DNA of 45,052 bases from a virus: positions 1-45,052 of the IMG/VR virus record IMGVR_UViG_3300048592_001028; one strand, written 5' to 3'. A program made the translations under genes and the position numbers. The number at the start of each line of letters is the position of its first letter. Position 1 is the stretch's first letter. Shown here in pieces: positions 309 to 42,725 of the stretch. The notes below the pieces were generated by a model, which was not told the DNA's origin, did no database searches, and worked only from the letters and a program-made list of their open reading frames with translations.

Positions 309-3300
309 TCATGCCGGTTTCTCCCGACGTTTCAGGCTATCGAGGATCGTGCGTATCTCGTCCTCAAGATGCTGCCCCCGGTAAACGAAGGACGTCTCAT
401 GCCGCGCGTACTGGCCCTGCCGATCGGCGCTGAGCCAGTTGTAGGATCCGATGCACAAAAGATCGGTATCGATCGCCACGATCTTGCTGTGCAGCTTTGG
501 GAGCTTGTGCAGTCGGACCCTGATCTTGGAGAACGCCTTCTCGACCGCTTCCATCTGGGTTAGCCCGCCCGCGGCAGGTCCCATGTTGAGCAGCGGATCA
601 GCGAACACATCGATCTCAGCGCCGCGACGGATAGCGGCTTCGAACGCGGCAATCAGCCCGACGCGGTCCATCGTGCTCGCAATCGCCCAAGGACTGACTA
701 TCGTGTATCGGCGACCACCCGCAGAAAGTGCATCCAGCAGGAAGGCATCATGCCCGGCCGCATCCCGCAGCATCTGGATCTTGCCACCACCCTGCTTCAG
801 GTCCGTCCGAGGCTCAGCCGCAAACTCAAGAGCATTTGCCTCTGATGCGAAGAGGAAATCTGCCAGGACTGCGCGGGGTGATCCCGAGTGTGCTGCCGCA
901 ATGACATCCATGTCGCCGAAGACAAGACAGCTATCCTTGGCCCGGGAGACCGTCACGTTCAGCATGCTAGGCGAAGCATCAATGAAGCTGCCGTCGGAGT
1001 GCTTAGAATAGACTGGAGAGAAAATCACAACAGGGCGCTCGGCGCCTTGCAGGGCGTGGACCGTGCCGATGGTCATGCCTTCGCGCCCGTCGACGGAAAT
1101 CTTGCGGGTGGCGCAGGCATCGCGAATTTCGCGAACCTGGCGGCCAAAGGGGGTAACGATACCGACGATCTGTTCGAGTGGTCTGCGGTAGCGAGCTTCC
1201 AGCCCAGCGCGGTTGGCATCAAGCCAGGCCGCGATTGTCTGCGCCTCGAGCAGATTGGCGCGGCTGCTCCCCGAAGTTACAGCACGGCCATCGACATGGA
1301 GATACCCGAGCGCCGGAAGGTCTACATCCGGAGGGGCCTTGCCACGCAACGGCCGGAGCTTACCCTTGTAGCACAAAGCGTTGCTGAACCCGATGATCTC
1401 GTCGTAGCACCGCCGATGCTCAAAGAGGTAGAGCCCCTTCTCAAGCTCGGGATAGGGCGAGACAAGGCATGCTTCCTGCGCGAGGCGCATGGCACTGCCG
1501 CTCGTCGAACAGATCCCGCGTTCGGTCAGCGTATCGACGTCGGTGTCGTTGCCCAGAAGGCCAGAGTTCCGCAAGTTCCCGACATCAACCGGACGCGGCA
1601 CCGATGAGATCGGTTCGATCTGTTGCGTGTCTCCAATCACAAGGGCTCGCTTTGCGAGTGCGAAGGAGGCCCCAGCAACCTCGGGAAGGACCTGACCTGC
1701 TTCGTCGACAATCAAGAGGTCAATGAAGTCATATAGATACTCGGTCGCCCACTTGCCTCCGTCGCGGCGAGTGTAGGTCATCTTGCCAGGCAGGCTAGCG
1801 AACGTGGCCACGGCGCAGGGGGTCAACATCATCCGGCGATGCCATCGAGGAATGACCGTCGCCTTGCCATTTTTCCCTTTTGAGGCAGCAATCGCCGCGA
1901 GATCAGCTTCCATGGCCAGAAGCCAGCGACCCTCCCAGTAATGCGTGGCCAGAAGGAACAGCGTGAACCGAATTTCGAGGTCGGCCCGGCGTTCCAGCTC
2001 GGCTAGTTCGCCAGTGCTGCCGAGTGCGGAAACTGCGGCCTGCCAGTTCCTTTCCGCCTCGAGAGAATCCCGACGCAAGGCTCTGGTCCTTTCAAGGGCC
2101 TGTTCCGCAGATTTCAACGCCTGCTCTGCCGCCTGAAGTTCGGTCCTTACCCGCTCCTCGATCTCAGTGACTCGCTTTGCGGTCTCCAGCCCCGGAAGGA
2201 GGTCGCCGATGGCAAGCCGGGCGCGCAGGGCACGCTTCTCCTTAACCGACGAAAGGAATCCGATCACTGCGGTGAGCGAGGACTCCGAAGCCAAGTGCTG
2301 CTCAAGCGCCGATCGGGCGGCGCGAAACTTTTTGACGGCAGCGGTTCGTTCTGCGAGCTCGCCTGCCCGACTCGACTCCATGGCTTCAGGGTCAGGACCA
2401 AGTTGCGCCTCGAGGGCGGCGCTGGCCGTTTGACGCGCCAGGTTCGCGCGATCGAGCCGCGACAGCTTTTCGACCTCCAACTCGATGCGTTTCTGGAGAG
2501 CCGACACCACGGAAGCCACATCAGGGTTGGCGAACTCTGGAAAGGCCGCCCGAGCGGCCTGCAAGTACGCATCCTTCGCACGCTGCACATAAGCGACTGT
2601 CTCGCGCTCAGCCTGGAATTCTTCGGTCTGATAGCGGCGGGCCGCTTCAAGGCGCCTAGAATGCGACGCAAGGAACATCCCGAAGCTTTCGACCTCAGGA
2701 AGCCAGCGCCCGGCAAGGGGCCCCTCCCCTCTGCCGAAGTCCTTACCGAAGGCGTCGATAATGTTCGTCACCGCCTGGTTGTTCGATGACGCTGCAACGA
2801 TCACCGGCGGGTCTTCGCCTCGCAGCGCGGCACGCACCCAAAGCCCAGCAACGGCCGACAGGAGCATGGTGGTTTTTCCGGTCCCAGGCGGGCCATTGAC
2901 GGCGATCACCTCTCCCGGCGTCGATGCATCCAGCCAAGCCAAGACCTGCCTCTGGTGTTCCGCAAGCGGAAAGTTCGGGTTCGAATGGCCAAGCCGGCGC
3001 GCGAATTCCTGCTCGATCCGTTGATCCGGGCTCCCGGCAGCTCGTCGCGGGTGAGCGACGTGCCTGAGCAGCTTCGCATCAGGCTTTTCGACGAGGAGCT
3101 TGTCATAGAGGTCAAGGATTCCCCGCACCGTGGCGTTCGCATCCTCGGCTAGCTCAAGAAACCCTGACCCGATCGGCTGGTAGTCTGTATCACCACGCGG
3201 CCAGCCTTGGGACACGGCATCCACCATCTTACGGCAGTGCCCAAGGTATTCCTGCCAGGCGCCTTCACCCGTCATCTCCGGAAGAGGGCTCTCGGTCAGA

Positions 3301-3713
3301 AACGAGTCCAGCGCGTCAACCGACCCGATGGCGAATTCGCCCGATGGCAAAGGGGTCAACAGATCGCGTGCTAGGGCATTTCGGGTGGGGGTGATCCGCC
3401 CGCCCCGATCGACCGTCGCCTCGGTCACCACGGGTGCTACGATTTCAGGTGAGCCGCCCCCTCGGGCTGCCCCATGCGACGACTTTCGCGCCGTCACCAG
3501 GGGCCAGAACCGAATGCCCATTGTCTTTGCCGCGGCCTGACCCCGGAAAACCCGCTCAACAACCTGCGCAGGGAGAACGCCTGTTTTCAGTGACTCGCCA
3601 GGCACTTCGACAAAGCGCTTGCGGTCTCCTTGCGTGAACTTCCCTTCGCCCAGCGCGCCGTCGGCAAGGGATGTCCGCCAGTAGCTAAGCAAGTTCTCCT
3701 GACCAAGTACCAT
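309..3713 (-). CDS. SF1 helicase with C-terminal PLD-like nuclease domain
   Basis: A 1134-aa protein. The helicase core has a Q-motif-like segment (about 249-262), Walker A GPPGTGKTT (about 274-282), a long predicted coiled coil between the ATPase motifs (about 360-560), Walker B VDEAGQ (about 669-674), motif III GDTQQIEP (about 694-701) and a motif VI-like VTVSRAK. The last 150 residues form a phospholipase D-like domain with one HKD signature, HSKIVAID followed by GSYNW, so the active site would need dimerisation. The predicted role is ATP-driven DNA or RNA processing coupled to nuclease cleavage. It is the last gene of the minus-strand TerY/PP2C/kinase cluster, 195 bp after the kinase gene, and probably its DNA-directed effector. 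The start has no strong ribosome-binding site, so it could lie slightly downstream. Confidence 0.85.
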   Translation of the reverse strand: MVLGQENLLSYWRTSLADGALGEGKFTQGDRKRFVEVPGESLKTGVLPAQVVERVFRGQAAAKTMGIRFWPLVTARKSSHGAARGGGSPEIVAPVVTEATVDRGGRITPTRNALARDLLTPLPSGEFAIGSVDALDSFLTESPLPEMTGEGAWQEYLGHCRKMVDAVSQGWPRGDTDYQPIGSGFLELAEDANATVRGILDLYDKLLVEKPDAKLLRHVAHPRRAAGSPDQRIEQEFARRLGHSNPNFPLAEHQRQVLAWLDASTPGEVIAVNGPPGTGKTTMLLSAVAGLWVRAALRGEDPPVIVAASSNNQAVTNIIDAFGKDFGRGEGPLAGRWLPEVESFGMFLASHSRRLEAARRYQTEEFQAERETVAYVQRAKDAYLQAARAAFPEFANPDVASVVSALQKRIELEVEKLSRLDRANLARQTASAALEAQLGPDPEAMESSRAGELAERTAAVKKFRAARSALEQHLASESSLTAVIGFLSSVKEKRALRARLAIGDLLPGLETAKRVTEIEERVRTELQAAEQALKSAEQALERTRALRRDSLEAERNWQAAVSALGSTGELAELERRADLEIRFTLFLLATHYWEGRWLLAMEADLAAIAASKGKNGKATVIPRWHRRMMLTPCAVATFASLPGKMTYTRRDGGKWATEYLYDFIDLLIVDEAGQVLPEVAGASFALAKRALVIGDTQQIEPISSVPRPVDVGNLRNSGLLGNDTDVDTLTERGICSTSGSAMRLAQEACLVSPYPELEKGLYLFEHRRCYDEIIGFSNALCYKGKLRPLRGKAPPDVDLPALGYLHVDGRAVTSGSSRANLLEAQTIAAWLDANRAGLEARYRRPLEQIVGIVTPFGRQVREIRDACATRKISVDGREGMTIGTVHALQGAERPVVIFSPVYSKHSDGSFIDASPSMLNVTVSRAKDSCLVFGDMDVIAAAHSGSPRAVLADFLFASEANALEFAAEPRTDLKQGGGKIQMLRDAAGHDAFLLDALSAGGRRYTIVSPWAIASTMDRVGLIAAFEAAIRRGAEIDVFADPLLNMGPAAGGLTQMEAVEKAFSKIRVRLHKLPKLHSKIVAIDTDLLCIGSYNWLSADRQGQYARHETSFVYRGQHLEDEIRTILDSLKRREKPA

Positions 3714-3908
3714 TAGACGTGCACCATTTCATTTGCTCGCTGTATATTCGCTTGTAGCAGTCTTCGATCATATTCGATGCAGCCTGGCTGTATTCCGATT
3801 TCGTGCCCTAACCTGGAAGCGTCGGTTCGAGGGGGGACATGATGGCCTGCATGAACTCCTTGACGGAAATCGCGCCATCTCAACAAGTCGCTGATTGGGC
3901 GGCCATCG

Positions 3909-6071
3909 CTAGATGTTCCTTGTACCGCGACAGCCTGGATAGCGAGAGCACCCCCAGAACGGGCCACGTCGCCCACGCCTGCGGCGCATGGAGGCACCGC
4001 AGGTCGGACAGAGTGGGGTTCCTCCGGTAGGCCGCGGGGCGGGAGTTGGCGAGGTTGGAAAAACTGGCGTGAAGGGTGGCGGCACGGGGCGCGGTGTAGC
4101 CGTAACCTTGAGCGTTACCTTGGATGACGGAACGCTCGCCCCTAGCAATCTCAGATCGTGTGCAGCCCCCGCCCTTTCTACAAGAGCCTGCACTAGTGCG
4201 GTATCTCCCCGAACTCGCGAGGGCAGCGCATCCAATCGTGGTTTGGCGGTGCGGAGCGTGGTCAAACCGCCCCGTATGGAGGCTTCGAGCTTCGCCTTCT
4301 GGGTCGCATACTTGGACCGAAGAGCGCGCTCGTCGGTAACGTCCTGCGCGTTCGGTGCGGGGTTATAGCGGAACCTTGCCTCGTGCGCTTTCCGCCAGTT
4401 CATCAACTTTTGGGTCATGACTTCGCCGAAGCCCGGCACCGCGCGAACAACAGACCAGTCAACATCGGCGGCTGTTTCAACACCGAAGGAAATCAGCGTT
4501 GCAGTCTTGGCCGGCCCTATGCCGGAAATACTCGCACGTCGCACCTGAAACTGATCGAGGTATGCCGCACGCTGGCGAGCTTCGCGATTGGATTTGAAGT
4601 TACGAAGGTCTTGGGCGAGGTCATCGTCGATACGTTTGTATGCCGCGATTTCTGCATCCAGATCGGCGCGAACTTGCACGACTTCTGTCAGGTTGCTCCG
4701 GCGCATGAAGGCGTCAAGCTCCGCCTGCACCTTACTATCGGCCTTTTCGAATCGTTTCAGAAAGGGCTGCTCGGAAACATTCCGGTCGCGAAATCTTGCA
4801 AAGCCCCAACCGGCGAGCCCAAGCCAGATGAACCAGATCGAAGTTGCAAAGACGAGTCCGGCAACGGCACCCACGATCATTAGGAGAGCCGTGAGGAAAT
4901 GACCGCGCTTCGCGTTCTTTGCTTCCCGTAACGCCGCACTAGGGCCGGGCGGAATAGCAATGGAAAGCGACAGCAGGTCCGATGCAGTCGGGAACCGGAA
5001 CGCCAAAATCTCCCGTATCGCCTCCTCCGTGCCGCGCACGTCGGTTGGAATGTCCGGGGTGACGAAAGACAGGTCCGGGAACATATCGAAGCCGCTTCTC
5101 GCGGCAAGACCGCACCAGACGCATCCCTTGGCACTGCTTGGGTAAAAGTGCGACTTGACCTTGCCGCAGCGGCTCAATGAGCCTTCCAGTCGCGTGAGTG
5201 CATCCACCCATTCCGCCGCACTCGGGCGCGACGAGGCATTCAACCCGAAGGCGCGCTCAATGGCTGAACTGACGGGGGCCGGGAACAGATCAAGGGGCAG
5301 AGCCCCGGGCGGCGGGCTCGTCTGCGTCTCGGATCGGCGAAGCACGGTGAACGCAAACCTGTTCTGGGCGATGGACTCGCCCATCGACAAATCAGGTCCG
5401 TTGTGAACTCCCGCGTAGGGGTGCCGCCCCATGAAGAGAAGGTGAAAGATCGCGACCGCCAGACCGAAATTATCGTGCTGAAGCGTGCGCGTCACAGTGC
5501 CGAGGTTGATGCCATGAAGCTCGGGTGGCGTGAAATCCTCCACCCCGACAAGGCAAGGATAGGTCTTGCCGTTAAAGCTGAACTGGAAGCTGTCCGCGTC
5601 GATTAGCGCAACGGTTGCCTCCTGCGACACCAGAACCCCGGAGTGGTTCAGGTCGCCGATTACACATCCGGTCTGATGCACCTTTCCAACTGCACGCGCG
5701 ACGTTCAGCGCGGCCCGAACAACAAAACGGTAGTCGGCCTTCGGAAAGTGGCGCTGCCGGGACTTCGGGCTGTAAAGCTCATGCAGGGGAAAGTATCCCG
5801 ACACGAGACGCATTAGAAAACCCAGAAACTTGCCGCTCGGATCGGTAGCTATCTCGCCCGGATAGGCAACAAGATCGGTCTTGGCGGCAAGTCCGCCAAG
5901 CACCATCGCCCGAACCTTGTTTTCGCGGGATGCTCGAATTCTGGCACCGTAAATCTTCACCGCTTGCCCGGCCTTGCCAGTGACCGCGAAAACCTCGCCC
6001 TCTCCGCCGCCGCCTATCCTTTCTCCAAGCTGATAGCGCGATGTGCCGACTACAATCTCCCGCATAGTCAC
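3909..6071 (-). CDS. TerY-P-type protein kinase with membrane, HhH and zinc-finger domains
   Basis: A 720-aa multidomain protein. Residues 10-290 resemble a protein kinase: glycine loop GERIGGGGEGEVF (16-28), the lysine in AVKIY, a catalytic loop GDLNHSGVL around Asp140 and DADSF in place of DFG at 158-162. The D+5 metal-binding Asn of kinases is Gly here (residue 145), so catalysis may be weak. A hydrophobic double segment (about 391-425) suggests a membrane hairpin, followed by a coiled coil, a helix-hairpin-helix (ISGIGPAKTATLISFG, about 514-530) and a C-terminal C4 topoisomerase-type zinc finger (about 686-720). The last two suggest DNA binding. It starts with GTG overlapping the PP2C stop (GTGA), which implies translational coupling. 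This architecture is that of the kinase in the TerY-phosphorylation triad. Confidence 0.85.
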   Translation of the reverse strand: MTMREIVVGTSRYQLGERIGGGGEGEVFAVTGKAGQAVKIYGARIRASRENKVRAMVLGGLAAKTDLVAYPGEIATDPSGKFLGFLMRLVSGYFPLHELYSPKSRQRHFPKADYRFVVRAALNVARAVGKVHQTGCVIGDLNHSGVLVSQEATVALIDADSFQFSFNGKTYPCLVGVEDFTPPELHGINLGTVTRTLQHDNFGLAVAIFHLLFMGRHPYAGVHNGPDLSMGESIAQNRFAFTVLRRSETQTSPPPGALPLDLFPAPVSSAIERAFGLNASSRPSAAEWVDALTRLEGSLSRCGKVKSHFYPSSAKGCVWCGLAARSGFDMFPDLSFVTPDIPTDVRGTEEAIREILAFRFPTASDLLSLSIAIPPGPSAALREAKNAKRGHFLTALLMIVGAVAGLVFATSIWFIWLGLAGWGFARFRDRNVSEQPFLKRFEKADSKVQAELDAFMRRSNLTEVVQVRADLDAEIAAYKRIDDDLAQDLRNFKSNREARQRAAYLDQFQVRRASISGIGPAKTATLISFGVETAADVDWSVVRAVPGFGEVMTQKLMNWRKAHEARFRYNPAPNAQDVTDERALRSKYATQKAKLEASIRGGLTTLRTAKPRLDALPSRVRGDTALVQALVERAGAAHDLRLLGASVPSSKVTLKVTATPRPVPPPFTPVFPTSPTPAPRPTGGTPLCPTCGASMRRRRGRRGPFWGCSRYPGCRGTRNI

Positions 6072-6814
6072 ACACCCGACAGCAGAACCAGCGTTTTATC
6101 ATCGTCGGTTCGTTCGCAGACGGAAGATCCGGCAAGATAGCTCCGCAGTTTCTGGGATAGTTCCGGGAGCTTCCCTGAGGCAACCGCACCATCGACGGGG
6201 CGCATCATAGGATTGAAGAATCCGGGGTGCGCCCTCTTGTCCATGACGGAGAGCGCCAGATCGCCAACACCATCGGAGAACAGGGCGAATGCGTCATGCT
6301 GCCGCTCTTGCCGAATGATATTCAAACGGGGCTCGGGATCGTCGGTGATAAAGAATGTGGTCGAGGCATAATCCCCATTTTCAGGCCAGCAGATCGCATC
6401 CCATTCCGATCCACAACGCCCGACGATCGCGCTATCCCCGATATGCAGAGCAAGAATTTCCGTCGGCGTGATCAGGAGGGTCGCCAATGTCGCCGCGAAC
6501 TGCCTGGGCGAGGTTTCTCGCCGATCCGCCGCAATCGAAATCCGGTCTCGGATCTCGTCGATCCAGTCTTTCAGCGTATCGTCATCCGGCAGAGCCTCGT
6601 TTTCGGCCAGCCATTCTCGAAACCGAACCTTGAGCACGCGACACGCAAGCCACGCGCCGGAGCCTCCGAAATTCGCACTTCCGGCCCCATCTGAAACTAT
6701 GGAGAGCACGCATCCATTGCCGACGGCCGAAACTGTGAAGGCGTCTTGCAGTCTTTCACCTGATCGAATGTGCGAAGTGCCTATCTCGGACGCGGCCGCC
6801 CAACGCCACGCCAT
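6068..6814 (-). CDS. PP2C-family protein phosphatase (TerY-P triad)
   Basis: A 248-aa PPM/PP2C-type Ser/Thr phosphatase. Metal-binding motifs are visible: the SDGAGSANFGGSGA segment near residue 50, LHIGDSAIVGR in the middle and LFSDGVGDL towards the C-terminus. It probably reverses the phosphorylation made by the neighbouring kinase, with the vWA protein as the likely substrate or scaffold. The ATG at 6814 lies 5 nt after the vWA stop. An alternative start at 6838 would overlap the vWA gene and add eight residues. The 3' end overlaps the kinase start. Confidence 0.85.
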   Translation of the reverse strand: MAWRWAAASEIGTSHIRSGERLQDAFTVSAVGNGCVLSIVSDGAGSANFGGSGAWLACRVLKVRFREWLAENEALPDDDTLKDWIDEIRDRISIAADRRETSPRQFAATLATLLITPTEILALHIGDSAIVGRCGSEWDAICWPENGDYASTTFFITDDPEPRLNIIRQERQHDAFALFSDGVGDLALSVMDKRAHPGFFNPMMRPVDGAVASGKLPELSQKLRSYLAGSSVCERTDDDKTLVLLSGV

Positions 6815-6819
6815 TCTTA

Positions 6820-7497
6820 CTATCCCGCAACCGCCCAACCGTCTGGGGCGGTCGGATTCGCCAAGGCGACCTGATCTCCGGGATTTGATTGCGACACGGC
6901 GCTAAGAGAACTGGACAGCCATTTGAACAGTTCCTTGAACGCGAGCCCCTTGAGCTTGAGCGGCTGCCGTGTAGCGATCTGCGATAGAATGCCCATGTCG
7001 GCACCCTCCACGCCTACCGCGTAGAACATGAACTCCTTGCGTTCCTCCCCATCGTGAACCCGGCGCTTCGCCTCATTCCAACTGTCGGTTGGAGCACCGT
7101 CGGTAATCAGGAAAACCCAAGGCCGAAAAATCTTGAGGCCATTGGCGCGGATATGGTCTTTACGCGTGCGCAACATATCCAAGCCTGTGATAATCGCTTC
7201 GCCCAATGGCGTTGCGCCCGTCGGTTGCAGGGTTTCGGGATAGAAGTGATCCACCGTGGCGAACTCGTGCCGCACCTCTACGGGGCCGAAAGTCACCATC
7301 GCCAGTTCGACGCGTTTTGCCGCAAGGGAGTCCCCGAGAAGTTCTTGACGAAGAGTCGCGAGCCCTTCGTTCAACTCCGCAATAGGCGCACCGCTCATAG
7401 AACCCGACGTATCCAGCAGTAGGAGAACCGGGCATCTCGGCTCAGGGTTCTCGGCAAGTTGTGCATCAAAAAACGGTTCCTGCTCAAAATCGGTCAT
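6820..7497 (-). CDS. terY: TerY-like vWA domain protein (TerY-P triad)
   Basis: A 225-aa von Willebrand factor A domain protein. The MIDAS metal site is complete: DTSGSMSG (DxSxS), GATPLGEA (Thr) and ITDGAPTD (Asp). It is first in a tight minus-strand operon with the PP2C phosphatase and the kinase, the arrangement defined as the TerY-phosphorylation triad and reported as anti-phage. The start at 7497 was preferred over the longer frame from 7647 because GAGGAG lies just upstream and the vWA fold begins soon after. The 213 bp between this start and the integrase stop (7498-7710) should hold the operon promoter. A TATGCT-like -10 on the minus strand at 7550-7555 is only a weak candidate. Confidence 0.85.
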
Positions 7498-7710
7498 CGG
7501 CGACTCCTCGTTCTTGAATGATCTTTGCTCACGCTGCATTGGCAGCCTTAGCATATCATTGAGAAATATGAAGACTTCGCGCGCGGCGCGGCGACAGGAT
7601 ATGGAGGTTCTGCCGCACAGGGTGATGCGTCCGAGCTCCTGGCGCATCGCACTGTCATCGGCCCGAGAAGACCAGCGTGATGCTGCGTTACTGTCAGGCC
7701 GCTTTCCGCT

Positions 7711-22995: not shown

Positions 22996-23310
22996 GTGTC
23001 TGCCTTCGCCGCCGCCCTCGACGGGCTCTTCGCCGATCCGAACCTGTCCGTCCTGGCGACCTGGCGCCCGGGCGGCGCGGCCCCTGGCCAGCCGATCCGG
23101 GTGGTCCGGCTGAGCCCGGATCGCATCGCCAGCTTCGGAGAGAGTCGCTTCGTCACCGATACGGTTCACTTCGAGATCCGCGTCGCGGAGGCCCCAGAAA
23201 TGGCAAGGGGCGACCTGATCGAGATCGACGGCGAGGCCTTCGAGATCATCGGCGAGCCGCTGCGCGACCGCGAGCGGCTTCTCTGGACGGCGGAGGCGCG
23301 GGCAGCATGA
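22996..23310 (+). CDS. Head-tail joining protein
   Basis: A 104-aa small beta-rich protein (FGESRFVTDTVHFEIRV, GDLIEIDGEAFEIIGEPLRD) in the position of the gpFII/head-tail attachment protein. It is typical of phage head-tail connectors, though primary-sequence similarity is low. GTG at 22996 follows the previous stop by 4 nt; the end overlaps the DUF6441 gene (ATGA). Confidence 0.78.
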   Translation: MSAFAAALDGLFADPNLSVLATWRPGGAAPGQPIRVVRLSPDRIASFGESRFVTDTVHFEIRVAEAPEMARGDLIEIDGEAFEIIGEPLRDRERLLWTAEARAA

Positions 23311-23951
23311 GGATCATGGCCGAGCTCGAGGGCGATCTCGACGCCTGGATCGCCGCCGAGCTCGCGGTCGCCGAGAATGCCGTCACCGCCGGCGTCAGGG
23401 TCGCCGCCGCCGGGCTGAAGGATCGCTGGCGGGGCCAGATCACCGGCGCAGGTCTCGGGCCGCGTCTGGCCCGGACGATCCGGCAGCGTGATTTCCCGGT
23501 GGGCGAGCCGTCACTTCGGGCCGCGTCGCTCGTCTATTCGCGCGCGGCAACGATCGTGCACGCCTTCGATGAGGGCGTCACGATCCGCTCGGAGCACGGG
23601 TTCTTCCTCGCGATCCCGACCGCGGCCGCGGGGGTCAGGGGCCCGGGCGGAAGGCGGATCACTCCGGGCGGCTGGGAGCGGCGGACTGGCATACGCTTGC
23701 GCTTCGTGTATCGGCGCCGCGGCCCGAGCCTGCTGGTGGCCGACGATGTGCGTCTTGGCCGCGCCGGCCTGGCCCGTGCGAAGCTCGGCCGCAGGCGGCG
23801 GGACGGCATCCTGTCCGGCGCGCAGACGGTGCCGATCTTCCTGTTGGTTCCGCAGGTTTCTCTGCAGAAGCGGCTTGATCTGGTGCGCGAAGCACGCTGG
23901 GCGTCTGCAACATTGCCCGATTTGATTGCTAGGGGGTGGCCAGTCGATTGA
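23307..23951 (+). CDS. DUF6441 family phage protein (head-tail/tail connector)
   Basis: A 214-aa protein resembling DUF6441, found between head-tail joining and tail terminator genes in rhodobacterial siphophages. Features are AAAGLKDRWRGQITGAGLG, AIPTAAAGVRGPGG and the late VPIFLLVPQVSLQKRLDL. It occupies the position of a gpZ-like tail completion protein. After it the operon is interrupted by the cassette at 23952-27501. Confidence 0.75.
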   Translation: MRIMAELEGDLDAWIAAELAVAENAVTAGVRVAAAGLKDRWRGQITGAGLGPRLARTIRQRDFPVGEPSLRAASLVYSRAATIVHAFDEGVTIRSEHGFFLAIPTAAAGVRGPGGRRITPGGWERRTGIRLRFVYRRRGPSLLVADDVRLGRAGLARAKLGRRRRDGILSGAQTVPIFLLVPQVSLQKRLDLVREARWASATLPDLIARGWPVD

Positions 23952-24374
23952 TCAGCACGCCGCTTCACCAATCGAAGTTGCAACGGGAAACCGACGTGCA
24001 CTCCATGATATTGCAAGCGGCGACCAGTTCGTCGGCTGCACCCTTACTGCTGCCCCCCCAAAAAGACCGGCATGAGAAGTCGTCCTTGGACTTGGAGGGA
24101 CAGCTTCACGACGTTGGTGCCCTGCGCATGATATCGGGCCATCATTGTGGCGGACACACTTTTAGCAACCGCCCCAACTTCCGGTCGCCAGAATACACTA
24201 GCGATAGCAGCACCAGGTACGGCCTAAGCTTTGTTGGGGCATTCTGAGTGCGCTCTCGTCGCCCGGGAGCGCCGCATGATGCGCGTAGACGAAGCAAAAC
24301 CGGTTGGCCGGCGCGGCGCCGTATGATACTTCTTAAACGATCAAATTGCAAAGATATTGCTTGGGGGGAATGTG
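23952..24374. other. Non-coding left junction of the exported-protein cassette
   Basis: 423 bp with no convincing gene; a 103-codon open frame at 23936-24247 lacks protein-like composition. A TATGAT at 24322-24327 could be a -10 element, but no good -35 is present at the right distance. It is visibly less GC-rich than the flanking structural genes. Confidence 0.5.
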
Positions 24375-24956
24375 ATGCTTGCTCGGGCGTACAAACTAAA
24401 CAAGTGCACTTTCTTGCTTGCGTTCATTCTATTTTGTTCCGCTTGCTTGCCGCCTGATCCGGCCGTCATGGTAGACTTAGCGCGCCTGCAAGACCCAGTG
24501 ACCAGGGTCGGGGAACTTGTTACGGTGTCGCCCGCCGAGGAACTTCGATACGTCGCGGATGGACGTCTGGCCGATGGTCGTTCTCTTAACCCGGTACTAT
24601 CCCGGTCGTTGCGGACATATCCCCGGGTCACGGTTGTGTTTTCGGAGGCGAGCGATGTGTCTATCGAAGGGTCCAGCAACTACGACGTCTATTCCTGGAG
24701 GCTCGCCGCCCGTCACCTAGGGCTCGGTGAACAGCTGTGCGACACCGCCGGGGGCGATGCGGCCGGCAGCTTAAGCGACGTGATCAAGCTTGCTGCGCGC
24801 GCCCTCAACGTCGGCACGGCGTTGGCCACCTTCGCGCCAATTGAGGATCGAACCCTTATCACGCGCTACGACAGCAGTGCCAACGGAAAAATATCGGAGA
24901 TGGTCTTTGTATACGGCCAGACATCTGCCTGTGGCACGCGTGCGGGGAGCGCATAG
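24375..24956 (+). CDS. Exported lipoprotein, accessory cassette gene 1
   Basis: A 193-aa protein. The N-terminus MLARAYKLNKCTFLLAFILF runs into a lipobox CSAC at residues 21-24, so it should be a membrane lipoprotein with Cys24 lipidated. No named domain is recognised in the mature part. It contains RVTVVFSEASDVSIEG and a Cys pair (CDTAG, TSACGT) that could form a disulfide. GGGGGGAATGTG stands before the chosen ATG. It is the first of three consecutive genes for exported proteins (6-nt gap to the next), so envelope tethering of the two proteases is a natural hypothesis. Confidence 0.75.
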   Translation: MLARAYKLNKCTFLLAFILFCSACLPPDPAVMVDLARLQDPVTRVGELVTVSPAEELRYVADGRLADGRSLNPVLSRSLRTYPRVTVVFSEASDVSIEGSSNYDVYSWRLAARHLGLGEQLCDTAGGDAAGSLSDVIKLAARALNVGTALATFAPIEDRTLITRYDSSANGKISEMVFVYGQTSACGTRAGSA

Positions 24957-24961
24957 CGGGT

Positions 24962-25666
24962 ATGGAACTCAAGCGAATTATTGTCGGCCTCTTGGCCCTC
25001 TTAGTGCTCCAGGTTGCCTCGGAGCAACCGGCTCTGTCTCAGCACCAACTCGACGAGGATGCCGCCTTCGGATTCAGGACGATCGACGATAGGGCAGTCG
25101 TGGCGACGGCGCATATCTGGCCGACAAGGAACATCCCGGTCTGCTGGGAGAACCCGCAGCAGCGTAACCTCGCAGATCGCCAATTGGTCATTCGGGCCGT
25201 GAGCGAAACGTGGGAGAGACATTCCGCAGTAAGGTTCGTTCAGTGGGGATTATGCAATCCTCGGAGCCGCGGCATACGAATTCTGATAGCGGATGCCGGG
25301 CCGCGCACCCTTGGGCTTGGTAGCCAACTCGATCGCAAGCCGCACGGAATGCTTCTGAATTTCACCTTCGCCAACTGGAAGCGGGACTGCCGTAGGCCCG
25401 AGGCTCGCCGACAGTTCTGCATCAGGTCTATAGCAGTCCACGAATTCGGCCATGCGCTGGCCTTTGCGCACGAGCAGAACCGATGGGACACACCGGGGGA
25501 GTGCGCCAAGCTCAATTTGACGCAAGGTTCACAAGGAGATCTTCAGCTAACGCGATGGGATCCCGAGTCGGTCATGAACTACTGCACTCGTCCATGGGTG
25601 AACAATGGCGAGCTCTCGGCTAACGACCAGTTCGCCGTGGCTGAAATCTACGGAGACCCAGAATGA
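24962..25666 (+). CDS. Secreted metzincin-type zinc metalloprotease
   Basis: A 234-aa protein with a signal peptide (about 1-27, hydrophobic core IIVGLLALLVLQVAS). The extended zinc motif HEFGHALAFAHE (160-171) supplies His160, His164 and His170 and catalytic Glu161, and ESVMNYC (202-208) gives the Met-turn, so this is a complete metzincin catalytic domain, closest in style to the matrixin/astacin group. Six or more Cys residues suggest disulfides and an extracytoplasmic location. No propeptide Cys switch is obvious. It overlaps the following serine protease gene by ATGA, so the two are probably made together. Confidence 0.85.
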   Translation: MELKRIIVGLLALLVLQVASEQPALSQHQLDEDAAFGFRTIDDRAVVATAHIWPTRNIPVCWENPQQRNLADRQLVIRAVSETWERHSAVRFVQWGLCNPRSRGIRILIADAGPRTLGLGSQLDRKPHGMLLNFTFANWKRDCRRPEARRQFCIRSIAVHEFGHALAFAHEQNRWDTPGECAKLNLTQGSQGDLQLTRWDPESVMNYCTRPWVNNGELSANDQFAVAEIYGDPE

Positions 25667-27228
25667 ACAGGAAAGTGATTTTCGTCTGCCTGTGCCTTAT
25701 CGCAGCAGTGATCGAGCAGGCACAAGCTCAGGAGCGCCCAAGAGCATCGGTTCATGAACTGGTCCGACCCTCCGTTGTCTATCTCACTCTTAGCGGATTT
25801 TCAGACGCCGGTAGTGTCGAAACGTCCGGTACAGGGGTCGTTGTCACTTCGGACGGTCTGGCCTTGACTTCATACCATATCCTTGAGCCGATCTTAGCTA
25901 CGCAGCAAGAGGGAAGAGAGCTCAGAGCACGGCTTGGGTTCAAAACGGGACAAGAGCACACTTTCACGATCGTCAACGCCGACAAGGACCGGGACTTTGC
26001 TCTGATCAAACTTAGTGATGGGCTTGGTGATTTTGCGGCCGTCTGCTTTTCGACTGAAAGGTTCCATAGGGGACTTGACGTGTTTACGACTGGGTTCCCA
26101 GAGATCTTTCCGGTTCTCGACCTGCGTGGGCCAATCGCCAGCTTCGACGGTGAGCGGGGTACGATCGTCGCTCAGTTTGGCGCGCCCGCAGGGATGAGCG
26201 GCTCTCCGGTATTCCAAGAGGACGGCGTCGTCAGGGGCTTCGTTAAGGGGTCATTTTCCGGTGCAGAGCCGAGGAATGCCGAAGATGATAACGGAGGCCT
26301 TCTGAGCGCGATCGTTCCACTGAGCGGGGTAGCTGGCCTGCCAGCGCCTGATCCGGGCTGCGCAGCGACATCCCGTCGGCCTGGCGAACTTGAACTGATC
26401 GAAATCGGCGATCGCGTTCTCGACGCGCCCCTATTAATTGATCAGCCGAATGCGGAGGTGGTGCTTTCCGGCAACCTTGAAATCGGTTCGAACTCAGTCA
26501 ACATACGGGCGGCGCGGCTTTCTGCGGAAAACGTAACGATCATCAGCTTCCCGATTGGCCAAACAGCAACGGCGGGCGCAAGAGGGGAGACCGGGCAGAG
26601 CGGTGACGATGCCCCTTCACGTAGCGGACAGCGCGGTCGCGACGGTGGGAACGGGAGTCCCGGAGGGTCGGGCGTGAGTGGCAAGAATGGCGGAAGCGTC
26701 CGACTCGTGGCCGAACAATTCGTTGGAAGGCTTGCGATCAATACTTCTGGCGAGGCGGGCGGCGACGGCGGCATTGGCGGTGATGGCGGCGATGGCGGAA
26801 GCGGAGCCGCGGGCCAGAATGCAGTGGATGGATTCCTGTCCTGTAACAGCGGACCCGGCAACGGCGGCGACGGCGGGAATGCGGGCTCCGGTGGCGATGG
26901 AGGCAATGGTGGCGACGGCGGCGACGCCGGGCGGGTGGAGATTGAATTCATCTCCGTCGCGACAGATGCATCGCTCCAAATCGTTGCGGAGGGCGGCCTA
27001 GCAGGCTTGGGAGCTGACGGTGGCCGGCAGGGTCGACCGGGCAAGCCGGGACCAAGGGGCCCAGCCTCCACCTTCTGCAGTGGAGCCGGGCGGGGTGAGG
27101 GAAGTCCGGGCCGCCATGCATCGAGCGGCGTCGCCGGTCAAACCGGAGAAGCAGGAAGCGCAGCGCCGGTCGAACTCCTTATTGGGAGTCAGAAATCCGT
27201 AACAACAGGAAGGGCAAGCTTTCCTTGA
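25663..27228 (+). CDS. Secreted trypsin-like serine protease with collagen-like Gly-rich region
   Basis: A 521-aa protein. A signal peptide (1-22, ending AQAQ) precedes a trypsin/HtrA-like domain (about 28-230) with SYHIL (His72), DRDFALIKL (Asp111) and PAGMSGSP (Ser179); no PDZ domain follows. Residues about 240-300 look beta-structured, and about 300-505 is glycine-rich with collagen-like GxxGxxG runs (GGDGGIGGDGGDGGSG near 365-380, GRPGKPGPRGP near 460) interrupted by hydrophobic strands such as SVRLVAEQFVGRLAI. This part may form a fibrous, anchoring or assembly stalk. Start is in ATGA overlap with the metalloprotease gene. Substrate and target are unknown. Confidence 0.85.
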   Translation: MNRKVIFVCLCLIAAVIEQAQAQERPRASVHELVRPSVVYLTLSGFSDAGSVETSGTGVVVTSDGLALTSYHILEPILATQQEGRELRARLGFKTGQEHTFTIVNADKDRDFALIKLSDGLGDFAAVCFSTERFHRGLDVFTTGFPEIFPVLDLRGPIASFDGERGTIVAQFGAPAGMSGSPVFQEDGVVRGFVKGSFSGAEPRNAEDDNGGLLSAIVPLSGVAGLPAPDPGCAATSRRPGELELIEIGDRVLDAPLLIDQPNAEVVLSGNLEIGSNSVNIRAARLSAENVTIISFPIGQTATAGARGETGQSGDDAPSRSGQRGRDGGNGSPGGSGVSGKNGGSVRLVAEQFVGRLAINTSGEAGGDGGIGGDGGDGGSGAAGQNAVDGFLSCNSGPGNGGDGGNAGSGGDGGNGGDGGDAGRVEIEFISVATDASLQIVAEGGLAGLGADGGRQGRPGKPGPRGPASTFCSGAGRGEGSPGRHASSGVAGQTGEAGSAAPVELLIGSQKSVTTGRASFP

Positions 27229-27274
27229 TCGTCGCACTCAAGTTGGCGCGGGGGGTCTTCCAGAAGCTGTGAAT

Positions 27275-27295
27275 TAGCCTCTATATAGTAGGCTA
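27275..27295. other. Hairpin after the serine protease gene
   Basis: TAGCCT and AGGCTA pair across a 9-nt AT-rich loop in the 273-bp gap (27229-27501) at the right edge of the cassette. It may be a weak terminator or part of an old junction. Confidence 0.35.
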
Positions 27296-27358
27296 TCTTC
27301 TCGTCCGTTGAATTAAACCCTCTGGCTTGCGCAGCAAGAAGAGCTACCTTCTCGTCTG
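27292..27358. repeat. 16-nt imperfect direct repeat in the cassette right flank
   Basis: GCTATCTTCTCGTCCG (27292-27307) recurs as GCTACCTTCTCGTCTG (27343-27358), two differences in 16 and 51 bp apart. Both lie in the non-coding gap before the tail terminator gene. Confidence 0.5.
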
Positions 27359-27366
27359 CTCTTCTT
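27336..27366. terminator. 9-bp inverted repeat, possible terminator
   Basis: AAGAAGAGC and GCTCTTCTT form a perfect 9-bp stem around a 13-nt loop downstream of the protease cassette. There is no clear T-tract, so termination is only a possibility. Confidence 0.35.
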
Positions 27367-27501
27367 CAGGTCCGCCATCTCCAGTTCCAAACGCATACCG
27401 CATGACAGCCACTGGCGCCATCCAGCGGCGTTGGGAGCGTGTCCAATGACTGGTGCTCATGCCTCGCAGTCTCCCCCGCAATAGTGGAGTGGGAAAGCAC
27501 G

Positions 27502-27945
27502 ATGACCACACCGACCACCGCCGAGAGCACCTTCTCGGCGCTCTTCGCTGCACTGGGGGCAACCCTGCCCGCGGGCGCGAAACTGCTTCGCAACGTCATC
27601 CTGCCAGAGCGCGTCCCACCGAAAGGCGTCGCGATCCTGCGCGACGGCGAGCCGGGCGAACCAGAGATCCTGCTCTCGCCACCGCGGTACATCTACGAAC
27701 ACCGTGCCGAGATCGATATCGCCGTCGAGGCCGCCAACGCTGCCGACCGCGACATGGCCTTCGACGCCCTGAAGCGCGCGATCAGCGAGGCGCTCGCCGC
27801 CGACCGCACCCTCGGCGGGCGGTGCGACTACGTCATCGGTGAGGCGCCGGCATCCATCGGCCTGCCTATCGAGGGCGCCGAAGGTCTCAAGGCCGCAACG
27901 ATCGGGATCGTGCTCACCTACGAGACGAGCGATCCGCTGCTCTGA
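27502..27945 (+). CDS. Tail terminator-like minor tail protein
   Basis: A 147-aa protein matching tail terminator (gpU-like) proteins of rhodobacterial siphophages: ESTFSALFAALGATLPAGAKL, RYIYEHRAEIDIAVEA, DAAFDALKRAI-type helix and a final strand IGIVLTYETSDPLL. It would cap the tail tube and join it to the head. It stands alone between two accessory insertions. The ATG at 27502 follows GGGAAAG; the longer frame from 27439 has no ribosome-binding site. Confidence 0.8.
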   Translation: MTTPTTAESTFSALFAALGATLPAGAKLLRNVILPERVPPKGVAILRDGEPGEPEILLSPPRYIYEHRAEIDIAVEAANAADRDMAFDALKRAISEALAADRTLGGRCDYVIGEAPASIGLPIEGAEGLKAATIGIVLTYETSDPLL

Positions 27946-27948
27946 GCA

Positions 27949-28428
27949 TCAGCAGGTCCGGTAGAGGTTCCCGGAGTAGCGGCAGAACTCGCGCGCGGTG
28001 CCGCTCGCGATCATCGCCGCAGTGATGTCGCGGCCGTCGGGCAGGAAGCACTGTCCGACGATGCGGCCGTACCGGTCGGTGTCGCGCTGACGACAGGTCA
28101 GGGTCTGCCCGGAGATCAGGTTCGACAGGGTGGCCGTCGCCTGCGATCCGCCCGGCCTGCCGCTTTCGGGCGCATCGAGGCCCCAGACCCGGATGCGCAC
28201 GTCGGCCGAACTGATCCAAAAGGTGTCGCCGTCGATCACCCGGGTGACGCGGCCGGTGAAGGTTTCGCCGGCCGGCAAGGCGACTGCGGTTATGGAGTCC
28301 GGTCCGGCCGCGCCGGCATCCTCTGCGCCGGGTAGAATAGCGGAACAGGCTGCCATGATCGCAAGGACCCCGACGAATAGCCCGGCGAGCGTGCCCCGTC
28401 CCTGGCGCCTGAAGCCGAGGGGCCTCAT
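27949..28428 (-). CDS. Exported thermonuclease (SNase-like)
   Basis: A 159-aa protein. A hydrophobic N-terminus GTLAGLFVGVLAIMAAC suggests a signal peptide or lipobox (MAAC). The SNase fold follows: TGRVTRVIDGDTFWI, VRIRVWGLDAPESG (active-site Arg and Asp region) and RDTDRYGRIVGQCF. Such enzymes cleave DNA or RNA with calcium, here outside the cytoplasm. It is on the minus strand in an otherwise plus-strand tail operon and begins in ATGA overlap with a small upstream gene, so the pair is an accessory (moron) unit. Confidence 0.85.
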   Translation of the reverse strand: MRPLGFRRQGRGTLAGLFVGVLAIMAACSAILPGAEDAGAAGPDSITAVALPAGETFTGRVTRVIDGDTFWISSADVRIRVWGLDAPESGRPGGSQATATLSNLISGQTLTCRQRDTDRYGRIVGQCFLPDGRDITAAMIASGTAREFCRYSGNLYRTC

Positions 28429-40912: not shown

Positions 40913-41105
40913 AAGAGCCTGATCCGCGAGCAAGCTTTGATTTCGGTGTTCCGCCTTGCGCGCCGATCGAATAGTCCCATGATCTGCCAAGGTTCCGGTA
41001 GACGGGTTCAGGCGCTCACTGCTATGTTAACCAGAGATTACTCACGTAAGAATCATTTCAGAGTACCTTACCGACACCTTGGGTGCTGGAACGGGGACAG
41101 GGGAC

Positions 41106-41861
41106 ATGATTCATGTCGAATGGAATGAGGCCGGCCGTCGAATAAGCGATGCGATGCTGCGAAGAGGCGTATCCGCTGCATGGGTCGCGCACAAGGCGGG
41201 ACTTGACCGGAAAACGGTCGACCGTGTGCGCAAAGGTGATCGGATTCGGCTTCAGTCCCTCACGTGCATCGAAGAGGTGCTCGGCCTCTCGCTCCTAAAC
41301 ACCAACATTGTAGATAGAGAAGCTCGGGGGCAAACGATAGCTCCGCCCGAGCTGGGCGGCTACTCACGGGAGATGTTCGAGAATTACGTTGGAACATATT
41401 ACATGTTCCGGAACTCGTATGATTTCAAGGACAGGGTAATATGCTCTTGCATAGAGGTATCTTGGAATCAAGATGGCGGCTTTCTTGTTTATGAGGAAAA
41501 CCAAGACAACAAGAGTCCAGACGGACGCAGATTCCGTTATAAGTTCAACGGAAAGATCGCGATACCCGCGGGATTGTCTATCACCCAATTTCTTGGATCA
41601 TCCGGTAACGGCTTTCATAGAGTGATGACAACTACCGGCTTGCGGGGGCACGAGACACAATACTTCAAAGGGATATTGATGGGAATCAACGAGGTGGCTG
41701 ATATCGGATTTCATCCGGCTACCTCACCGGTCTTCATCGAAAAGGCGTCCGGTCCGGCGGACCCGGAACTGATCGGATCCTTCCTACACAACGAACTGTG
41801 GCACGAGAGTGCCCTCCATCAGCTTCAGTCTGCGCGCGGCAGCTTCACAGCCTTCTACTAA
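41106..41861 (+). CDS. HTH transcriptional regulator-like protein
   Basis: A 251-aa protein. Residues 10-60 form an XRE-type helix-turn-helix (ISDAMLRRGVSAAWVAHKAG, then LDRKTVDRVRKGDRI). The rest (about 85-251) has alternating strands (NYVGTYYMFRNSYD, RYKFNGKIAIPAG, FHPATSPVFI) and is not a recognised domain; it may sense a ligand or bind a partner. It has lower GC than the phage genes. AGGGGAC precedes the ATG. No typical partner gene is next to it; an IS begins one base after its stop codon. Confidence 0.75.
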   Translation: MIHVEWNEAGRRISDAMLRRGVSAAWVAHKAGLDRKTVDRVRKGDRIRLQSLTCIEEVLGLSLLNTNIVDREARGQTIAPPELGGYSREMFENYVGTYYMFRNSYDFKDRVICSCIEVSWNQDGGFLVYEENQDNKSPDGRRFRYKFNGKIAIPAGLSITQFLGSSGNGFHRVMTTTGLRGHETQYFKGILMGINEVADIGFHPATSPVFIEKASGPADPELIGSFLHNELWHESALHQLQSARGSFTAFY

Positions 41862-42725
41862 CTAGGCACTGTCCCCATTAACCGACGATAGCGTTTGCTT
41901 GGCGGCGCGAGTGCTGATTCAACCTTCCTGAAGAGGGAGGGTGAGATGCGCCGGCATGAACTGTCTGACGAGGAATGGGCGATCATCCAGCCGCTGCTGC
42001 CGCAGAAGTCGCGGGGCGTGCCGCGGGTGGACGACCGCCGGGTGATCAACGGCATCCTGTGGCGGTTCCGGACGGGCGCGCCGTGGCGGGACGTGCCGGA
42101 GCGCTACGGGCCGCGCACGACGCTCTACAACCGGTTCGTGCGATGGCGGGCGGCGGGGGTGTGGGACCGGCTTCTGGATGCGGTGTCAGCGGCTTACGAC
42201 GGCGACATCGTGATGATCGACAGCTCCTGCGTCCGCGTCCACCAGCATGGGGCAGCGGCAAAAAGGGGGGCCCCGAGGCCGGTGGGGATCGTTGCATGGG
42301 ACGTTCACGCGGCGGGCTGACCACCAAGATCCACGCCCTCGTGGACGCCGAGGGCCGCACCGTGAAGATCGCGCTCACCGCGGGACAGGCGGGCGACGCC
42401 CCCGCCGCCGAGCAGATGCTGCCCCTCGTCGCGCCCGGCGCCACCCTGATCGCCGACCGCGCCTACGACACCAACGCCATCCGCGACGCCTGCGCGGAGA
42501 AGAAAGCCTGGGCCAACATCCCGCCCCGCACCATCCGAAAGGACGCCTTCGCCTTCAGTCCGTGGGTCTACAAGCAGCGCAACCTCGTCGAGCGCTTCTT
42601 CAACCGTATCAAGCAGTTCAGAGGCCTCGCCACCCGATACGACCGATCCCCGGACAACTTGCTCGCTGCAATCAAGATCGCCGCAATCCGAATATGGATT
42701 GCAGCGAAATGAGTCCGCACCCTAG
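41862..42725 (+). mobile_element. IS5-family (IS427-like) insertion sequence
   Basis: About 860 bp, the usual IS427-group size, with a two-frame transposase. Both ends carry CTAG (41862-41865 and 42722-42725), a typical target duplication for the group, and the outer sequences form an imperfect inverted repeat (GGCACTGTCCCCATT against GGTGCGGACTCATT). It is inserted directly after the HTH gene stop and 2 bp before the LD-carboxypeptidase stop. Confidence 0.8.
41946..42712 (+). CDS. IS5/IS427-family transposase, two frames joined by -1 frameshift
   Basis: The upstream frame (41946-42320) encodes the DUF4096-like N-terminal part (MRRHELSDEEWAIIQPLLP, APWRDVPERYG) and the first catalytic Asp in IVMIDSSCVRVHQH. 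The downstream frame ends at 42712 and carries GRSRGGLTTKIHALVD, TLIADRAYDTNAIR (second Asp) and NLVERFFNRIKQFR (Glu), completing a DDE transposase of about 255 aa. The frames meet at A5G6 (42260-42270), read as GCA AAA AGG, where a -1 slip joins them. Programmed frameshifting is usual in this IS group, so the element may be functional. An AGAGGGAGGGTGAG leader precedes the ATG. Confidence 0.85.

Follow-up and report, generated by a model that had tools for sequence, protein, structure and literature searches.

Why would a prophage carry genes for exported proteases in the midst of its late operon? The question is raised by a 45-kb IMG/VR virus record of 45,052 nt, analysed over its full length and called the window here, in which an integrated siphophage is flanked by bacterial DNA. 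An earlier note on this DNA had described a cassette of three consecutive genes, for a lipoprotein, a metzincin and a serine protease, inserted between the genes for a DUF6441 protein and the tail terminator. The open reading frames and their coordinates are as it claimed.

A cassette in a cargo hotspot

The phage genes of the window run in the order terminase, portal, fused protease-major capsid protein, cement protein, DUF6441, tail terminator and tail proteins. The same order is found in Rhodobacter phage RcKemmy, with a 4-nt overlap between the DUF6441 counterpart and the gene that follows it; the prophage is related to Rhodobacter siphophages. In the window, 3,550 nt separate the DUF6441 gene (23307-23951, plus strand; PF20039, E 3.5e-53; phrog_6367), which forms the conserved left flank in the head-tail region, from the tail terminator gene (27502-27945, plus strand; phrog_4204, E 4.9e-28), the conserved right flank. 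We found no literature on DUF6441. The insert begins with a leader of 423 nt (23952-24374, plus strand) that is non-coding in the open reading frame map and yielded no convincing promoter or terminator candidate in a consensus scan. The genes for the lipoprotein (24375-24956), the metzincin (24962-25666) and the serine protease (25663-27228) follow, all on the plus strand, which is that of the late operon, and a second non-coding part (27229-27501, plus strand; open reading frame map) completes the insert. The gap between the first two genes is 5 nt, not the 6 nt given earlier, while the ATGA overlap of the two protease genes (25663-25666) had been noted correctly.

The difference in base composition from the flanking genes, also claimed earlier, is clear. 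GC content is 57-61% in the cassette against 68-73% in sampled integrase, head, tail and lysis genes, and GC3 of the three cassette genes is 0.59-0.67 against 0.82-0.91 in that sample; the cassette is foreign to the phage in its base composition. No att repeats were found, and the junctions of the insert carry no insertion sequence and no long repeat. The relatives are too distant for the exact insertion junction to be mapped, and both flanks of the cassette fit the phage gene order in register.

Is this junction peculiar to the window, or do related phages also accept genes here? Sampling of the phage group relied on a single protein and gave 80 viral contigs (often fragments) with a related DUF6441; both flanking genes could be placed in 76. 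The junction is empty in 62 of the 76 (-10 to +70 nt) and filled in 14 (640-2,629 nt), and all 14 inserts have lower GC than their own flanks. The junction between DUF6441 and the tail terminator is a cargo (moron) hotspot. Cargo in the relatives lies mostly antisense to the late operon, whereas the window cassette lies in the sense direction. Pfam confirmed RHH plus ParE (locus L102), PIN (L168), HipA (L104), RES with a HEPN-type N-terminus (L115), Schlafen AlbA_2 (L091) and HNH (L118), and gave a DnaJ C-terminal domain (L103) and a weak match to a C92 papain-like protein (L120). By eye, we recognised a near copy of the L102 ParE (L111), a ParE-like gene (L110) and a RES-like gene (L155). Three further inserts (L105, L107 and L114) had no PADLOC match, and no Pfam match where tested; their cargo genes are candidates for new conversion or defence genes.

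Separate cargo occupies the next junction, between the tail terminator and a tail protein gene, where the gap is 967 nt in the window versus 22-67 nt in most relatives. It is a gene for an SNase-like nuclease (27949-28428, minus strand; PF00565, E 2.4e-10) with the lipobox IMAAC and predicted to be exported, and it occurs in none of the 80 related contigs. Because it lies on the strand opposite to the cassette and has phage-like GC, it was probably acquired separately; it is also a possible functional partner of the cassette. At the same junction in related phages, L157 (3484-5745, minus strand) and L159 (8100-10361, minus strand) carry a 753-aa P-loop protein without known family.

Other features lie farther away in the window. 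The left flank, outside the prophage, holds at 309-7647 (minus strand) a gene for an MkoC-like (Mokosh type) helicase protein (PADLOC, 1227 bits) and, adjoining it, genes for a kinase, a PP2C-like phosphatase and a vWA protein that resemble a TerY-P triad; together they are possibly a defence island next to the integrase gene. A 260-aa gene of 53% GC with a weak Cro/C1-type HTH (41079-41861, plus strand), close to the right end of the prophage, is possibly further cargo; beyond it lie an IS5-type transposase, apparently in two overlapping frames (41895-42712, plus strand), and then a minus-strand LD-carboxypeptidase (S66) gene.

The three encoded proteins

The lipoprotein (193 aa) starts at the ATG at 24375, with GGGGGG upstream, and has the lipobox FCSAC, recognised by eye. 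It is without known family or homologue: Pfam and PADLOC gave no match, and at the sensitivity used no relatives were detected among viral contigs or plasmids, in the 84 bacterial loci, or in 385 genomes from the class to which Paracoccus ravus belongs. A single-sequence AlphaFold model of it (pLDDT 38) is too poor for comparison with a TIMP-like domain. The two proteases have signal peptides with the signal peptidase sites ALSQ and AQA-QE, likewise recognised by eye, and all three cassette proteins look exported, as the earlier note had proposed.

The metzincin (234 aa, six cysteines) matches the Pfam family Astacin (PF01400, E 2.4e-6, above the family cut-off). Its zinc site, HEFGHALAFAHEQNR, is intact (H160, E161, H164, H170), and its Met-turn is SVMNY (203-207), with M205 and Y207 invariant among 36 aligned sequences. 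Is it a true astacin? The astacin signature has been defined by the family glutamate and the sequence EXXRXDRD after the third histidine (PMC9848320). The SXMXY Met-turn of family M12A, with its zinc-binding tyrosine, is present, and an AlphaFold model (pLDDT 86) shows the astacin catalytic-domain fold: the best match among solved structures is myroilysin (VIA-align Z 18.4, 163 residues, 2.4 A), with Z of 15.8-15.9 for astacins and about 13 for MMPs (matrixins). Where M12A has HEXXHXXGXXH, however, the metzincin has HEFGHALAFAH, with the three His and the Glu in place and Ala for a Gly that is conserved at 90% or more in its relatives. Likewise, its EQNRWDTP keeps the Glu, the Arg and the first Asp of EXXRXDRD and lacks the final RD. 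Because these two signature positions differ, the protein is, on its modelled fold, better labelled astacin-like than classed as an astacin.

The serine protease (521 aa) matches Trypsin_2 (PF13365, E 4e-16) and has a complete catalytic triad (H72, D111, S179). Its earlier description as trypsin-like fits the fold, but a PDB profile search places HtrA/DegP nearest among solved structures, and Gly173 occupies the S1-pocket position, in place of the Asp found six residues before the catalytic Ser in trypsin proper (S1A). The PDZ domain that marks the HtrA family is absent as well, Trypsin_2 being all that Pfam finds. The C-terminal third, which had been called collagen-like, proves instead to be Gly-rich (32% Gly in residues 300-505), with several G-x-y runs of up to 9 that are mostly GGD/GGN, unlike collagen-type GPX.

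Nothing similar to the metzincin was found in 50,697 phage records, and at the sensitivity used neither it nor the serine protease domain has close phage relatives in INPHARED or IMG/VR. An alignment scan with the metzincin gave four weak viral matches, none adjoining a recognisable serine protease, and a viral structure library contained one phage entry near it, a weak match from Lactobacillus phage 3-521 (E 1e-3). The metzincin also had no match in PADLOC, where no curated model of known anti-phage defence was matched beyond weak, fold-level matches of the serine protease.

A protease pair in bacteria

Do these genes keep company elsewhere? Scanning about 85,000 species genomes with a profile yielded 118 metzincin relatives, of which 80 were kept, and further ones came from plasmids. 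In 20 of 84 loci, a serine protease of the same family lies directly 3' of the metzincin on the same strand (about 17 independent cases, four of the 20 being near-identical Bradyrhizobium loci). Elsewhere there are 6 such genes among about 850 (Fisher p about 1e-16), in a comparison that uses heuristic gene calls and a serine-protease profile seeded from paired members. The paired loci represent Alpha-, Beta- and other Proteobacteria, Acidobacteriota, Marinimicrobia and Desulfobulbaceae, and some of them sit on plasmids or in mobile contexts; pairing is scattered on the weakly resolved metzincin tree (10 changes versus 19 in shuffles). Metzincin and serine protease genes form a pair that recurs as a module in bacteria, and it is kept in bacterial loci that have no phage genes nearby. 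Strong matches number 2 among 395 genomes of one family, a patchy distribution of the kind expected of a mobile trait. The earlier note had staked its proposal on co-occurrence of the three genes, and for the two proteases this linkage holds; it is not seen for the triad, the lipoprotein having no detected relatives.

A different lipobox gene does lie directly upstream (same strand or divergent) in several of the pairs. The count is 10 of 20 with the window included, or 7 of 17 after collapsing Bradyrhizobium, compared with 8 of 64 unpaired metzincins and 28 of 267 background genes. One of these upstream genes resembles the housekeeping NlpD, and without that locus and the window the excess is marginal (p 0.03). 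Moreover, the upstream lipoproteins of paired loci are mostly unrelated to one another, and none is related to that of the window. The three-gene set as a unit is known from the window only; elsewhere, unrelated lipoproteins stand in the same place.

Other neighbours of the bacterial metzincins are likewise exported proteins or enzymes, among them a beta-propeller protein with a peptidoglycan-binding domain, a RoxA-like cytochrome and an M23 peptidase. The closest metzincin, from Paracoccus ravus, adjoins genes for a caspase and a GH25-like lysozyme (GH25 by eye); its operon (L202, 93-5469) comprises the caspase, the metzincin, a small lipoprotein, the lysozyme and, at the contig end, a serine protease. 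Two Roseobacter-type loci (L203 and L204) share a conserved operon in which the metzincin and serine protease genes are accompanied by those for the beta-propeller with peptidoglycan-binding domain and the RoxA-like cytochrome and by a P450-like gene, and which by its content may be an exported oxidative and proteolytic set.

Might the serine protease activate the metzincin from a zymogen? Arg44 of the metzincin comes just ahead of the residue aligned with the mature N-terminus of astacins (position 46 of the model corresponds to astacin position 1), and a basic residue is found here in 7 of 21 paired and 27 of 68 unpaired metzincins. This idea was set aside, because the Arg44-type residue is independent of pairing and the protease lacks the Asp for Arg/Lys specificity.

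Possible functions and known systems

Considering that bacterial loci without any sign of this phage keep the protease pair, a use for the cell is likelier than a use in phage assembly. Cell-directed use and the hotspot position together make a lysogenic-conversion cassette the best reading, and we lean, by a modest degree, to the view that the three genes are a horizontally acquired accessory (moron) set that provides the lysogen with exported proteases. The cassette is probably a bacterial trait passed by the virus to its host. The lipoprotein would be anchored in the envelope as their partner, perhaps an inhibitor, a target or an anchor. The metzincin and the serine protease would exit the cytoplasm via the Sec pathway and could then jointly attack envelope proteins or proteins in the surroundings, working in the periplasm or extracellularly, and relatives encoded on bacterial chromosomes and plasmids presumably behave likewise. 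We infer the export, the joint action, the expression in the lysogen and the benefit to the host cell. The intact catalytic residues of both proteases favour conversion, as do the precedents of phage-linked exported proteases, Mtz-Tim and Jep, described below. Against it, the relatives' cargo at this site is mostly on the other strand, the triad is seen once, and the cassette was found in one phage only among those searched.

Expression in the lytic phase is as possible as in the lysogen, because the cassette shares the strand of the late operon and has no recognised promoter of its own. Perhaps the proteases are produced alongside the late gene products and, by weakening the envelope, help lysis or virion release. 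Such a role has been proposed for a pair from Listeria and its prophages, the secreted metzincin Mtz beside the lipoprotein Tim, which is of phage origin; Mtz cleaves its neighbour Tim, and expression of Mtz-Tim sensitises cells to phage lysis (PMC8235301). We regard a lytic role as unlikely for the window cassette, which has a 423-nt leader and a composition unlike that of the phage and whose protease pair recurs in bacterial loci away from phage genes, while Mtz-Tim sits by holin-lysin genes in Firmicutes phages and includes no serine protease.

Superinfection exclusion, one suggestion of the earlier note, is more doubtful still; like the action on a eukaryotic host that the note also considered, it is a guess. 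Here the exported proteases would destroy receptors or the injected proteins of phages in the periplasm, and the SNase might degrade DNA. The hotspot in relatives does carry toxin-antitoxin and nuclease genes as in phage defence loci, comparable antiviral hotspots exist in P2/P4 phages (PMC9122126), and the predicted exported SNase is next door. The relatives' cargo is mostly intracellular, however, the PADLOC matches are weak ones to the serine protease fold, and the SNase, with its other strand and phage-like GC, is probably a separate acquisition. We found no literature on phage-borne protease exclusion systems. That the insertion is transient and has no selected function, or that the assembly is chimeric, would suit the single occurrence in one record and the low GC relative to the flanks, but is improbable in view of the intact frames and catalytic residues, the cargo at this junction in 14 relatives, the flanks in register and the absence of insertion sequences or long repeats at the junctions.

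A broader proposal goes beyond the lysogenic-conversion reading, and we give it little credence: the pair, often with a lipoprotein, might be a mobile system of exported proteases, so far undescribed, where one enzyme processes the other and which phages recruit as an extracytoplasmic weapon or barrier, here with an exported nuclease. The linked gene pair itself spans several bacterial phyla, and a limited literature search found no description of it; the window shows that phages are able to acquire it. In addition, toxin-antitoxin, defence-like and conversion genes can be sought at the junction between DUF6441 and the tail terminator throughout a large siphophage group. Viral astacins were reported in one insect virus only by a 2023 survey (PMC9848320), and an astacin-like enzyme in a tailed phage widens that range.

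How does the cassette compare with systems already described? The earlier note knew of none with this composition, a statement that overlooked Mtz-Tim (PMC8235301) and the exported serine protease Jep of the S. aureus Sa1int phages (PMC12554148). The phage-linked combination of metzincin and lipoprotein is already known from Mtz-Tim, and the window cassette differs as a variant. Both consist of accessory genes in which a secreted metzincin adjoins a lipoprotein (the window's signal peptides being recognised by eye), but Mtz-Tim lacks a serine protease, has the metzincin before the lipoprotein, belongs to Firmicutes and lies beside holin-lysin. The lipoprotein of Mtz-Tim is TIMP-like.

Jep and ETA of the Sa1int phages are prophage-encoded proteases of the chymotrypsin fold that are exported, as the window's serine protease is predicted to be; they differ in being single genes, in a Gram-positive host and at a different site. 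Myroilysin and flavastacin share with the window metzincin the long zinc motif, the family glutamate and the Met-turn Tyr. Compared with bacterial astacin-like metallopeptidases, the window enzyme has 24% identity, Ala for the motif Gly, TP for RD at the end of EXXRXDRD, a short prosegment and a serine protease partner. That partner shares the GxSGxP motif with HtrA/DegP, its best PDB profile matches, and differs in its missing PDZ domain and Gly-rich tail. Finally, the antiviral hotspots of P2 phages and P4 satellites (PMC9122126) resemble the window site as small loci of variable cargo between two conserved phage genes, but they belong to another phage group and another junction, and the cargo in the window is predicted to be exported.
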